In this document: positions 1 to 4,654 of the stretch, in pieces
Layout of the letters: each line of letters opens with the position of its first letter
How positions within the stretch are numbered: position 1 is the first letter of the stretch
NCBI GenBank assembly: GCA_030685015.1
Contig: JAUXWS010000103.1
Coordinates: 1-6,772 of the forward strand
Length of the DNA stretch: 6,772 nucleotides
Direction of reading: 5' to 3'
DNA from: a bacterium
GTDB lineage: Bacteria > CAIWAD01
Position numbers and translations under genes: made by a program
Notes under the pieces: model-generated
Database searches by the model: none
Seen by the model: only the letters and a program-made list of their open reading frames with translations
Told to the model about the DNA's origin: nothing

Positions 1-510
1 CGGGCGGATCCTGCCTTGCCAGGAATGGTGCTTAGCTTGGTCGCCGTGGGTGAACGGGCCGGCCAACTGACTGTCTGCACGCGCTTCCTGCTGGACTACT
101 ACCAGCGTGTGCTTGAGCTGAAGCAGAGCCTCTCTCGTGGCCTAACCTATCCCATTGTGGTTTGCCTCTTCATCTGGATCAGCCTGGGCGTGTTCGACGG
201 CGTGATCCGCGGAGTGTTTGAGTCCCTTTACAAGAGCGCGGAGGTGGTCCTCCCCACCTCCATGCACACCCTGTTTGCCTTCATCCATGTGCTGTTTCTG
301 ACGCCGCTGCTGGTGGCGCCATTACTGGCAGTGGGGTGGTGGCTGGCCCGACGTGCCCACTGGCCCCTGCCAGGCAACCTGACGATGCAGGGGAGCACCC
401 ATGGCGCACGCGGCCTCACACGGCACAATCGTGCGGTTGCCGGCTGGGCGCATAGGAACCCCATGGACTACACGCCCTTCGGCCGCGAGCTGGCGCATGT
501 AAGTGGATAA
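1..510 (+). CDS. Type II secretion/type IV pilus F-family (GspF/PilC) inner-membrane protein, 5'-partial, short C-terminus
   Basis: The reading frame is open from base 1, so the gene starts outside the window; 169 codons are visible. GspF/PilC proteins are polytopic platform proteins in the inner membrane that connect the assembly ATPase to pseudopilin or pilin assembly. The family signature is clear. A region like 'lP.mvvsLVAVGErAGQL' lies at in-window residues 6-23, with GERAGQL at 17-23. A DYYQR...LELKQSLSRGLTYP segment follows and leads into a first membrane helix at about 48-66. VLPT (83-86) precedes a second long hydrophobic segment at about 91-116. A full member would continue into a second F domain. 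Here only about 50 poorly conserved residues follow, ending in FGRELAHVSG (160-169). That ending resembles the opening of a second F domain cut short, so this may be a truncated or decaying gene. The stop TAA (508-510) lies inside a palindrome. The ATPase gene follows after 54 nt. Confidence 0.72.
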   Translation, partial: RADPALPGMVLSLVAVGERAGQLTVCTRFLLDYYQRVLELKQSLSRGLTYPIVVCLFIWISLGVFDGVIRGVFESLYKSAEVVLPTSMHTLFAFIHVLFLTPLLVAPLLAVGWWLARRAHWPLPGNLTMQGSTHGARGLTRHNRAVAGWAHRNPMDYTPFGRELAHVSG

Positions 511-560
511 TTATCCTTTTGAAAAGGAGAAAAATTCGTCATTTTCTCCTTCCAGGAGGG
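505..560 (+). promoter_or_regulatory. AT-rich leader of the DUF4143 ATPase gene with nested inverted repeats around the ribosome binding site
   Basis: Four repeat structures are visible. GGATAATTATCC (505-516) is a perfect 12-bp palindrome that includes the upstream stop codon. Bases 511-520 pair with 522-531 (TTATCCTTTT/AAAAGGAGAA, one mismatch). Bases 524-533 pair perfectly with 542-551 (AAGGAGAAAA/TTTTCTCCTT, 10 bp, 8-nt loop). CTCCT (546-550) pairs with AGGAG (554-558) of the Shine-Dalgarno sequence. The second and third pairings share bases, and so do the third and fourth, so at most two can form together. This gives a plausible ON state (524-533 with 542-551, binding site free) and OFF state (511-520 with 522-531, leaving CTCCT to cover the binding site). 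The same palindromes could instead be protein operators on DNA. A weak TTGAAA (519-524), 17 nt, TTTTCT (542-547) promoter-like pair overlaps them. Confidence 0.6.
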
Positions 561-564
561 ATAA

Positions 565-1881
565 ATGCGGGAAATCCTGCGTGACAAGCTGGCGGCGGCG
601 CTGAACGATCCGCTGCCTGGCCTGACCCGGCGCGACGTGCGCCTGCCGGCCGTTCCCAACAAGGCGCTGGCTGTGATCGGCGTGCGCCGCTGCGGCAAGA
701 CCTCGCTGCTCAGCCAATGCCTGTCCGACCGCCTGGCGGAGGGCGCGCCGCGTGAGGGACTGGTCCTCCTGGGGCTTGAGGACGACCGCCTGGTGGGGCT
801 GTCCACCGACGACCTGTCCTGGCTGATGGAGGAGTACTTCCGGCAGCATCCGGCCTTGCGCGGCTCGGGGCAGGTGACCTTCGCCTTTGACGAGATCCAG
901 GTCGTGCCCGGCTGGGAGCGCTTCATCCGCCGGCTCATGGACACGGAAGCGGCCAAGCTCTTCGTCTCAGGATCCTCGTCCAAGCTGCTCAGCCGGGAGA
1001 TCGCCACCAGTTTGCGGGGCCGGGCGCTGGAAGTGCTGGTGCACCCTTTCAGTTTCCGGGAAGCTCTGCGGCACGCGGGCCTCGAGCCATCCATCGCCTG
1101 GGAGCGGCAGAACCAGGCCGAACGCAGTTCCCTGGACCATCACCTGGGGAACTACCTGCGGCAGGGGGGCTTTCCCGAGGCTCAGGGACTGGCGCAGCAG
1201 GATCGCCTGACCTTGCTCAAGAACCATGTGGACGTGGTGGTGCTGCGGGACGTCATCGAGCGCCACGCCGTCTCCAACCCCTTGCCCTTGCGCTGGCTGC
1301 AGCGGCAACTGCTGGCCAATCCTGCCGGCACCTTCAGCGTGCAGAAGTTCCACGACCAGTTGAAGAGCCAGGGCGTGCCGGTCTCCAAGGACACGCTGCA
1401 CGCATTCCTGGCGCACCTGGAGGACGCATTCCTGGTGCGCACGATCCATTTGCACAGCGCCAGCGAGCGTCAGCGCATGGTCAACCCGCGCAAGATCTAT
1501 CCGGTGGACACGGGCCTGATCCAGCTCTACGAGCGGAGCGGACGACCCAACCTGGGGCACGCGCTGGAAAGCGTGGTCCTGCTGGAGCTGGAGCGTCGCG
1601 GCTATGAGAGCGCCTACCTCCGCACGGAGGAGGGTTGGGAGGTGGACTTCCTCGCCACCGCGCCGGGCCGGTCTTCCCTTTTGCTCCAGGTGTGCGCCGA
1701 TGCGCAGGATCCGGGAACAGCGCTGCGGGAGCTGCGGGCCCTGGCGTCGGCCAGACAGCGGCAGCCGGACGCGCGCGGCCTGTTGGTCACGCTGGACTCG
1801 ACCCCGCCCCGGGACCTTCTGCCGGAAGGCCTGGAATGGTGGCCGGCGGCGCGCTGGCTGCTTTCCATGGAGGAGGACTGA
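565..1881 (+). CDS. AAA_14/DUF4143-family ATPase
   Basis: This is a complete 438-residue protein, a normal length for the family. An AGGAGG site (554-559) five bases upstream supports the ATG at 565. The N-terminal P-loop ATPase has Walker A GVRRCGKT (39-46), Walker B VTFAFDE (104-110) and the family's SGSSSKLLS segment (135-143), followed by an RGR motif (151-153). The C-terminal DUF4143 half includes GGFPEA, DVVVLRDVIERH and the PRKIYPVDTGL segment. It ends in a restriction-nuclease-like fold remnant: E335 in GHALESVVLLEL, EVDF (359-362) and QVC (375-377), where an active nuclease would have E-x-K. Family members are abundant and often multicopy in bacteria and archaea, but their cellular role is not established. 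ATP binding is well supported; nuclease activity is doubtful because the lysine is missing. It follows the GspF-like gene closely but has no obvious functional link to it. The leader suggests its translation is regulated. Confidence 0.93.
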   Translation: MREILRDKLAAALNDPLPGLTRRDVRLPAVPNKALAVIGVRRCGKTSLLSQCLSDRLAEGAPREGLVLLGLEDDRLVGLSTDDLSWLMEEYFRQHPALRGSGQVTFAFDEIQVVPGWERFIRRLMDTEAAKLFVSGSSSKLLSREIATSLRGRALEVLVHPFSFREALRHAGLEPSIAWERQNQAERSSLDHHLGNYLRQGGFPEAQGLAQQDRLTLLKNHVDVVVLRDVIERHAVSNPLPLRWLQRQLLANPAGTFSVQKFHDQLKSQGVPVSKDTLHAFLAHLEDAFLVRTIHLHSASERQRMVNPRKIYPVDTGLIQLYERSGRPNLGHALESVVLLELERRGYESAYLRTEEGWEVDFLATAPGRSSLLLQVCADAQDPGTALRELRALASARQRQPDARGLLVTLDSTPPRDLLPEGLEWWPAARWLLSMEED

Positions 1882-2513: not shown

Positions 2514-3554
2514 ATGGCCGACCAACCCCGACTTCAACGCGCCCTGCGCCTGCTCCAGATCCTGGGCGGCTCGGGCTGGGTGACCGCCCGCGGCCTGCGG
2601 AAGCGCCTGGACGGCCGGGAATCGCCCCGCACCATCCTGCGCACCCTGACGGCCATCGAGGAGGCTGGCATTCCCCTGGAGCGGCGCACGGCGGCCCACG
2701 GCGAGCTGGAGCTGCGCCTGCCCGGCGCCCTGCGCATCCCGCCCCACCGCCTCAGCACCGACGAGGCGCTGGCCGCCCTCGTGCTGGCCCAGTTCGGCGG
2801 GCATTTCGCGGGCAGCCCCATGGGCGAGGTGCTGGCCGGCCTGATCGACAAGCTGGAGCAGCTGCTGCCCTGGGAGGGCCTCTTCGCCCAGGCGGGCCTG
2901 GAGGACGGGCCGGAGCTGGTGCGCGTCAAGCAGGCGGGCCAGGTGGCGGAGGGGGGCGGCCTGCTGCTGGCCCTGCTGGAGGCCATTCTCGAGCGCCGCG
3001 TCTGCCAGGTGGAGTATCGCCGTCTGGACGGCCCCCAGGCGCGGAGCTTCGCCGTCCACGCCCACAGCCTCATCTTCCACGCCGGCGCCATCTACGCCCT
3101 GGTCTGGCAGCCCGACCACCAGTCCTGGCTGCATCTGGCCCTGCAGCGCCTGGGCGGCCTGGAGATGCTGCCGGCCACTTTCGAGCGGCGGCCCGACTTC
3201 CGCCTGGCCGACTTCATCAACGGCAGCTTCGGCATCTGGCACGCCGAACCCTGCGCCGTGCGCCTGCGCTTCGACCGCCGCCTCGCCTCCTTTCTCAAGG
3301 AACGGGTCTGGCATCCCAGCCAGGAATGGGCGGAGGAGGAGTCGGGCGACCTGCTGCTCAGCATGACGGTGGGCCTGTCGCCGGAGCTGCGGGCCTGGGT
3401 GCTGCGCTGGGGGGCCCACGTGGAGGTGCTGGAGCCGTCCGCTTTCCGCGAGGAGATCCGCCTGCAACTGGCCCTGGCCGCCGCCCGCTACCTGCCGGCG
3501 CGGGAGTCAGCGGCCCCCGCCGCGGCTGATTCCCGCCAGCCGGCCATCGATTGA
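2514..3554 (+). CDS. WYL-domain transcriptional regulator (HTH-WYL-WCX)
   Basis: The ATG at 2514 follows an AAGGGAGG site (2503-2510) and gives 346 residues, the usual size for this family. An upstream in-frame start at 2460 lacks such a site. An N-terminal winged-helix DNA-binding region (about 1-60) includes the RLQRALRLLQIL and SPRTILRTLTAIEEAGIPLERR segments typical of PafC/YafY-like proteins. The WYL domain lies at about 150-235; its name-giving triad is degenerate, reading I193-Y194-A195 within IYALVW. A WCX-type C-terminal domain begins near VRLRFDRR (about 248) and runs to AAARYL. WYL proteins are one-component regulators that sense nucleic-acid or nucleotide ligands and often control DNA-damage, defence or stress genes. 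The direct target cannot be read from the sequence. The adjacent DoxX gene is a candidate, and autoregulation is common in the family. The last 20 or so residues are alanine- and proline-rich and probably disordered. Confidence 0.9.
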   Translation: MADQPRLQRALRLLQILGGSGWVTARGLRKRLDGRESPRTILRTLTAIEEAGIPLERRTAAHGELELRLPGALRIPPHRLSTDEALAALVLAQFGGHFAGSPMGEVLAGLIDKLEQLLPWEGLFAQAGLEDGPELVRVKQAGQVAEGGGLLLALLEAILERRVCQVEYRRLDGPQARSFAVHAHSLIFHAGAIYALVWQPDHQSWLHLALQRLGGLEMLPATFERRPDFRLADFINGSFGIWHAEPCAVRLRFDRRLASFLKERVWHPSQEWAEEESGDLLLSMTVGLSPELRAWVLRWGAHVEVLEPSAFREEIRLQLALAAARYLPARESAAPAAADSRQPAID

Positions 3555-3668: not shown

Positions 3669-4568
3669 TCAGAAGTCCTCGAGGCTCTCGAAGCTGTCCC
3701 CGGGGCGGACCTCGCGCTCGGTGATGGCGTTGTTCTCCTTGAGCACCTGGATCGTGCCGATCATGGCGCCCAGGGCGGCCAGCTGGGCCGGCGCCTCCTG
3801 CCCGATGTGGACCAGGTCCCCGGGAATGGCGAGGAACTCCTTGTGGTAGGCGGCAAGGCCGATCCAGGCCATGGCGCCGTTCCAGCCTCCCTCGTCGAAG
3901 AGGTGGCGCTTGACCCGCTGGAAATCGTCCAGCACCGCCTGGGAGTGGCGGATGGCCAGGTTGTCGCAGACGACGCCCACCCCCAGGTTGTAGAGGAGGA
4001 GCCCCACCCGCTTGGCCTGGTCGCCGCTCAGCTCCTTGCGCTGCAGGCGGCCGTCGGCCTTGGCGCGCTCGATCGCCTTGTCCTGCAGGCGGCGCCGCTC
4101 CAGCACCAGCTCCTCCTCCCCGGCGCCCCTTTCCGCCATGCGCTCGTCCAGCTCCTTCAAGGCCTTCAGCTCCTCGGCGGTGGCGGCCAGGCCGAAGATC
4201 TCCTGGCGCGAGTTGTCCAGGCTGCGGCGGGCCGTCGCCAGGTTGAGCTTGATCACGCGCACCCGCCAGATCGCCTTCTGAACGCTGCCCTCCTTCGGGT
4301 TGATGCCCACGTCCTGGGCCGCCAGGCGCAGGAGGGAATCCAGCAGCTCGGCTTCGGCCCCGCTTCCCTCCACCGACACCTCGGCCTGGCCGATGCGGCG
4401 GGCGGGGCGCCGGCAATCCGCCTCATCCTCGTCCGCCGCCGCTTGCCGGGCCGCCTGGGACAAGGCTTTTTTCATTTGTTGGGAGTCGATGCAGGAGGAG
4501 GCGAGGAGGGCCAGGATGCCCAGCAGGATCCACCAGCGCATGAGGGAGGAAGGGCAGGTCCGCGTCAT
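3669..4568 (-). CDS. Predicted lipoprotein of unknown function
   Basis: I do not recognise this 299-residue protein. A lipoprotein signal is visible: MRWWILLGILALLASS followed by C26, with an acceptable LASSC lipobox. After processing, Ile is at +2 and Asp at +3. In proteobacterial sorting rules Ile at +2 would favour the outer membrane. The mature part is helical and highly charged; residues about 110-177, rich in Leu, Glu, Lys and Arg, look like a coiled coil. A more hydrophobic helix pair (GLLLYNLGVGVV and GWNGAMAWIGLAAY) follows before an acidic tail. No start has a good ribosome binding site. ATG 4568 was chosen; GTG 4583 and ATG 4541 are alternatives, the last leaving a 16-residue signal. 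It is divergent from the histidine kinase gene and convergent with the WYL gene. The opposite-strand frame over the same bases lacks any plausible domain, so the minus strand is preferred. Confidence 0.7.
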   Translation of the reverse strand: MTRTCPSSLMRWWILLGILALLASSCIDSQQMKKALSQAARQAAADEDEADCRRPARRIGQAEVSVEGSGAEAELLDSLLRLAAQDVGINPKEGSVQKAIWRVRVIKLNLATARRSLDNSRQEIFGLAATAEELKALKELDERMAERGAGEEELVLERRRLQDKAIERAKADGRLQRKELSGDQAKRVGLLLYNLGVGVVCDNLAIRHSQAVLDDFQRVKRHLFDEGGWNGAMAWIGLAAYHKEFLAIPGDLVHIGQEAPAQLAALGAMIGTIQVLKENNAITEREVRPGDSFESLEDF

Positions 4569-4654
4569 GGCGGAATGTGGCACTGACGCGAGGCAGGGTC
4601 AACCGGTTGGAATGGGCCTGTGACCATCTTAACTTGTTCACAACTGGAACGGGA
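4569..4654. promoter_or_regulatory. Divergent intergenic region with short palindromes and a weak kinase promoter candidate
   Basis: This gap separates the divergent lipoprotein and kinase genes, so both promoters should lie here. AACCGGTT (4601-4608) is a perfect palindrome. TTGTTCACAA (4634-4643) has TTGT/ACAA arms. TTGGAA (4607-4612), 17 nt, TAACTT (4630-4635) is spaced like a sigma-70 promoter facing the kinase but matches the consensus poorly. The stretch 4630-4650 is less GC-rich than its surroundings. The assignment is tentative. Confidence 0.3.

Follow-up and report, generated by a model that had tools for sequence, protein, structure and literature searches.

Tandem palindromes over the promoter of an AAA_14-DUF4143 (PDC-S01) ATPase gene: a probable private operator

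The locus and its two palindromes

The window, as we call the whole stretch of 6,772 nucleotides that was analysed, is the entire contig C103 of a 3.6-Mb genome. An open reading frame (ORF) truncated at its 5' end closes with a stop codon at 508-510, and a short leader separates it from a gene (565..1881) whose product matches AAA_14 (2.4e-30) and DUF4143 (7.2e-16) in Pfam and is assigned by PADLOC to PDC-S01 (E 1.4e-91). When this leader was compared with the leaders of homologous genes, we observed two 21-bp palindromes of the form TTNTCCTT-N5-AAGGANAA, at 511-531 and 544-564. Their starts lie 33 bp apart, or about three helical turns, and the second palindrome abuts the ATG at 565. The features of the locus are the following:

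1..510, plus strand: upstream ORF, 5'-truncated, with a T2SSF-like start and an RHS-like tail; outside the conserved unit
511..531, plus strand: putative operator site 1, TTATCCTT-TTGAA-AAGGAGAA, with half-sites at 511-518 and 524-531 and 0 mismatches to the consensus TTNTCCTT/AAGGANAA
517..524, plus strand: weak -35-like region, either TTTTGA at 517-522 (by homology to TTGACA of the relative L136) or TTGAAA at 519-524 (by scoring)
532..543, no strand: 12-bp spacer, giving the 33-bp site-to-site spacing that is the same in eight other tandem leaders
540..547, plus strand: -10-like region, either CATTTT at 540-545 (by homology to TATATT of L136) or TTTTCT at 542-547 (by scoring)
544..564, plus strand: putative operator site 2, TTCTCCTT-CCAGG-AGGGATAA, with 1 mismatch to the consensus; adjoins the start codon
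554..559, plus strand: Shine-Dalgarno sequence AGGAGG, which shares bases with the right half-site of site 2
565..1881, plus strand: AAA_14-DUF4143 ATPase, phage defence candidate PDC-S01, with an AAA module, a predicted winged helix at residues ~239-313 and a PD-(D/E)XK-like C-terminus

A preliminary description of this DNA had read the leader as a switch of mutually exclusive hairpins, and the three pairings that it named, together with the upstream stop codon, do lie where it had placed them: 511-520 and 522-531 are 90% complementary (9 of 10 bases paired), 524-533 is the perfect complement of 542-551 over 10 bp, and 546-550 (CTCCT) pairs perfectly with 554-558 (AGGAG). The AT-rich character that it had ascribed to the leader was likewise borne out, the G+C content being 35% in the element versus 69% in the surrounding contig. 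It had overlooked that these arms make up a 21-bp palindrome present twice in tandem. A larger inverted repeat (511-533/542-564, 74%) takes in all of the pairings, and, since the left half-sites resemble each other, as do the right ones, either right arm is a possible partner for each left arm. The pairings are real, but their switch-like exclusivity is a necessary by-product of two adjacent palindromes, that is, of four near-identical half-sites. In the window, the 54-bp tandem pattern has a single occurrence; 200 shuffles yielded none.

Could translation of the upstream gene be coupled to that of the ATPase gene, as had also been proposed? The upstream ORF is chimeric, a T2SSF-like piece joined to an RHS-like tail. 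Another contig of the same genome, C37, carries window positions 232-496 with one mismatch (L025, 1-265) and then runs on into RHS core sequence; the two copies diverge 14 bp before site 1, so that the conserved unit seems to start close to that point. In the relatives that were inspected, the DNA upstream of the element is different again. The proposed coupling is therefore not conserved, and any coupling of translation to the upstream ORF is a local accident. The duplicate of 232-496, with its different continuation from 497, may be a repeat, a strain variant or an assembly fork.

Two other genes of the window deserve mention. Positions 2514-3554, two genes downstream of the defence candidate, encode a WYL/WCX-domain protein, a possible transcriptional regulator; WYL proteins are known to regulate defence loci. 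On the minus strand, a 304-aa ORF (3669-4583) has a lipoprotein-like start and gave no Pfam or NCBIfam match.

Linkage to the ATPase gene and position on the promoter

We scanned 386 genomes for the pattern TTNTCCTTN5AAGGANAA-N12-TTNTCCTTN5AAGGANAA, allowing up to 3 mismatches and using the reversed pattern as the control. The scan returned 10 places versus 0 for the reversed control, and 9 of the 10 directly precede an AAA_14-DUF4143 ATPase ORF, in the correct direction and at a distance of 0-29 nt, with two of the nine overlapping the gene's alternative start. The pattern had been derived from five of these nine, and G354 had previously been spotted by eye; the new finds are G119, G345 and the leader of G365. 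The tenth place (contig C11 of G057, 3 mismatches) is in AT-rich DNA, away from the start of any such gene. The nine linked genomes (G000, which holds the window, G275, G119, G345, G218, G057, G035, G365 and G354) belong to unrelated taxa, each has at most one DUF4143-linked tandem site, and the nine tandem-site genes encode ATPases ranging from ~30% to 66% in identity to the window protein. Identities this low, in unrelated taxa, indicate that gene and site have stayed together through long divergence.

An alignment of the nine tandem leaders has 54 columns, of which 22 do not vary. Looser arrangements also occur and weigh against a double operator: the second site of L026 (58% identical) is degenerate, with 3 mismatches, and the close relatives L138, L140 and L167 have one site only. 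Overall, the view that the element is cis-regulatory is supported. The earlier expectation of a cis-regulatory element shared by relatives holds for the nine tandem leaders upstream of DUF4143 genes, but not in the form of an RNA family (see below). As a side observation, the closest homolog (L163, on contig C28 of G035; 66%) has a conserved operator, its reading frame is broken near the start, and ~60 N-terminal residues are missing; the phylum of G035 is represented by one genome.

An AT-rich palindrome in a GC-rich contig, situated at a breakpoint, might be the terminal repeat of a mobile palindromic element of the REP or MITE type. However, the tandem element is single-copy in the window's genome, where a DNA search with the whole leader found only itself, and it is without a matching downstream end. 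Over 48 genes, moreover, the arm words were found 94 times upstream and 7 times downstream. A mobile origin is largely refuted by these counts, and we consider it highly improbable.

The position of the palindromes relative to the promoter is seen most clearly in L136 (58% identical), which has the promoter TTGACA-n17-TATATT. Here, the -35 hexamer occupies positions 7-12 of palindrome 1 and the -10 hexamer positions 30-35 of the unit, which puts the predicted transcription start inside palindrome 2, so that arm 1 would not be transcribed. To the eye, L150 (TTGTCA-n17-TATATT), L146 and L155 have similar promoters, and in L167, a relative from a viral contig, AAGGTGTCCTTGACAGAAGGACACCTT is centred on the -35. 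The promoter in the window itself is weak (p 0.08), and a consensus scan found none; because its hexamers are poor, its -35 and -10 were placed by homology to L136. This weak promoter is presumably the active one.

The family at large was examined in 117 DUF4143 genes, most of them from ~30 genomes of many families, in which an inverted repeat was sought between -90 and +15, with 243 neighbouring ORFs as controls. A significant repeat was present at p<=0.01 in 31 of the 117 genes versus 12 of the 243 neighbours (Fisher 2.7e-8) and at p<=0.05 in 51 versus 30, respectively; half of the DUF4143 genes were without a significant inverted repeat in this test. A CIRCE-like operator turned up among the neighbour genes and served as a positive control. 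The arms are gene-specific and differ even between paralogs in one genome, and the upstream regions are more alike among closer proteins than among unrelated ones (p 6e-6, a small effect). A promoter at p<=0.1 was found for 65% of the DUF4143 genes versus 18% of the controls, and 38/117 versus 10/243 were leaderless, with a predicted start <=4 nt from the start codon (p 1e-12). A significant repeat and a promoter occur together in 38 genes; the repeat covers the -35 to -10 span in 30 of these, and its left arm begins upstream of the predicted transcription start in 34.

The spacing recurs as well. Direct repeats 31-33 bp apart amounted to 26 events in DUF4143 leaders, compared with 2.4 expected and with 4 in the 243 controls, and inspection shows that a 32-33 bp spacing is kept with other half-sites in L145 (CCGG type), L151 (GCCAATTTT type) and L137. 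We then applied criteria fixed beforehand to 44 genes of two other phyla. Inverted repeats were found in 12/44 at p<=0.01 and in 22/44 at p<=0.05, and there were 7 direct repeats at 31-33 bp versus 1.0 expected, whereas other distances were without excess (12 vs 10.4). The sequences thus show the palindromes, their spacing, their linkage to this gene subfamily, their overlap with promoters in relatives and their recurrence across the family.

Several further observations concern individual members. The leaders of L048 (G043) and L091 (G047) contain at least three copies of a gene-specific 10-13 bp word, direct and inverted, around TTGACA/TATAAT. The load of DUF4143 domain matches is unusually dense in G047 (34 in ~2.2 Mb) and G042 (19 in ~1.7 Mb). 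Among viral-contig proteins, a search with the single sequence gave no match and one with an alignment gave six relatives, including L167; a plasmid search gave four distant homologs. L154 and L155, distant homologs on plasmids of Sulfuricurvum kujiense and Calditerrivibrio nitroreducens, lie close to a site-specific integrase, and their leaders contain TTGACA and AAGGATAAA words.

Folding of the leader RNA

For the RNA of 505-580, the predicted fold is one long hairpin with an energy of -28.2 kcal/mol, which none of 200 dinucleotide shuffles matched (z -4.2). The tandem relatives have a similar potential to pair (z -2 to -7), and the pairing of 524-533 with 542-551 is perfect. All of this would suit an RNA switch, in which the leader alternates between folds with an open and a closed ribosome-binding site and is coupled to upstream translation. 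An RNA switch should also leave compensatory changes in its arms, the evidence that the preliminary description had itself called for. In the nine tandem leaders, 81.0% of cells were paired in the long hairpin compared with 78.8% in shuffled alignments, and 92.4% compared with 90.1% in the local hairpins; some covariation counts lean upward, yet none is far outside the shuffles, with the limited power that nine sequences give. The invariant feature is the sequence of the half-sites and not the structure, as is expected of a protein-binding site. Furthermore, the element overlays the promoter in relatives, many of which are predicted to be leaderless, and the upstream gene is not conserved. Rfam gave sub-threshold chance matches elsewhere in the window and none at the leader. 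The switch proposed at the outset is thus very unlikely.

Could the same DNA nevertheless serve twice, as an operator and, in read-through RNA, as a hairpin that prevents unwanted translation by burying the Shine-Dalgarno sequence? Folding predicts the Shine-Dalgarno sequence to be free in an mRNA that starts at 552 and buried in a read-through RNA that starts at 505, and the nine leaders keep the pairing potential, albeit as a by-product of the palindromes. On the other hand, the long hairpin is without clear covariation, and 26/45 cells are unpaired in its central five pairs. A dual use is therefore conceivable, although we lean against it.

The ATPase as candidate repressor of its own gene

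An AlphaFold2 model of the ATPase, computed from eight sequences, reached a pLDDT of 85 (an earlier model from two sequences, with a pLDDT of 55, was discarded). The order of its elements H239-251/H259-268/H275-287/E291-297/E309-313 is that of a winged helix, with a pLDDT of ~80-90 there, and the protein is accordingly predicted to carry a DNA-binding domain of this type. A sequence search of solved structures gave a chance match only. The top fold matches of the model are the archaeal AAA+ ATPases 2qen and 2fna (Z 15), and Foldseek also matched it to Orc1/Cdc6 initiators on DNA (2qby, E 1e-7; 2v1u). In all of these proteins, an AAA+ module is followed by a winged helix, as in the window model. 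By comparison, the window protein has a PD-(D/E)XK-like C-terminus in addition, and its sites overlay a promoter.

Orc1/Cdc6 proteins bind inverted-repeat boxes. Given that the predicted fold resembles Orc1/Cdc6 bound to origin DNA, the palindromes might be origin-like boxes, as in the archaeal initiators, or boxes targeted by the nuclease, the promoter overlap being secondary. The sites, however, track the geometry of promoter and start codon and not the intergenic region at large, which makes a function of this type quite unlikely. Some other, host-encoded regulator could bind the sites and have the ATPase gene as its sole or principal target. Nevertheless, nine unrelated families have the same motif beside members of one gene subfamily, with at most one DUF4143-linked copy per genome; paralogs of one genome carry different palindromes; and the ATPase has a predicted winged helix of its own. 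We consider a separate host regulator unlikely.

The explanation that we favour, with a probability of about 0.7, is that the element is a private double operator over the gene's own promoter, through which the ATPase represses its own gene. The palindromes would present themselves on the same face of the DNA, site 1 covering the -35 and site 2 covering the transcription start and the Shine-Dalgarno sequence. The AAA+ ATPase, with its winged-helix and nuclease-like domains, would bind the two sites in dimeric or oligomeric form and thereby repress its own gene; when binding is lost, for example because the protein engages invading DNA, repression would be released. That many relatives have their own version of the sites suggests that these proteins switch themselves off.

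In Thermus thermophilus, the RNA of TT_P0211 (AAA_14/DUF4143/HTH), which shares the AAA_14/DUF4143 domain make-up of the window ATPase, rose 6.6-fold only when a plasmid and Argonaute were both present (PMC4406477), so that at least one family member is regulated in response to invading DNA. PDC-S01, to which the gene behind the element belongs, is an ATPase fused to a PD-(D/E)XK domain and the fourth most common defence across prokaryotes; most PDCs await experimental validation, and PDC-S01 is a candidate (PMC12988326). In arCOG03166, listed as having a likely role in defence (PMC4158269), HTH and RecB nuclease domains are fused to an AAA+ ATPase; it may be the same family. We found no description of PDC-S01 regulation or of a cis-regulatory element in the papers searched, nor any account of such an operator for DUF4143, COG1373 or AAA_14; within a searchable literature that is limited, the supposition that the element is undescribed stands.

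The arrangement has parallels in known systems. Restriction-modification controller proteins act at palindromic, often repeated sites over their own promoter. The operators of type II toxin-antitoxin systems are likewise palindromic, often repeated and placed over their own promoter (PMC4803016). In contrast to both, the sensor/effector ATPase and the presumed repressor are here one polypeptide, and paralogs have private operators with a recurrent 31-33 bp spacing. RptR (PMC12255303) and the BrxR-type WYL family (PMC9122601) are transcriptional repressors controlling phage-defence genes; there they are dedicated trans-acting regulators, whereas here the presumed repressor would be the defence ATPase itself.

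Whether the reading extends to the whole family is a more tentative matter, on which we stand close to undecided: AAA_14-DUF4143 (PDC-S01) ATPases might be self-repressing one-gene systems. Members would then have a palindromic operator of their own, in many cases repeated at a distance of 31-33 bp, on a promoter that is strong and frequently leaderless, and the winged helix that reads this operator would also serve in sensing. The locus carries a caution, in that tandem palindromic operators mimic RNA switches if judged from sequence alone. Few unexplained defence candidates are as common as the PDC-S01 ATPases (PMC12988326), and a family-wide operator signature would tell how they are kept quiet and which DNA each protein reads. 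If the family-wide reading is true, tens of thousands of such genes would each disclose, in their promoter, the DNA sequence that the encoded protein recognises.
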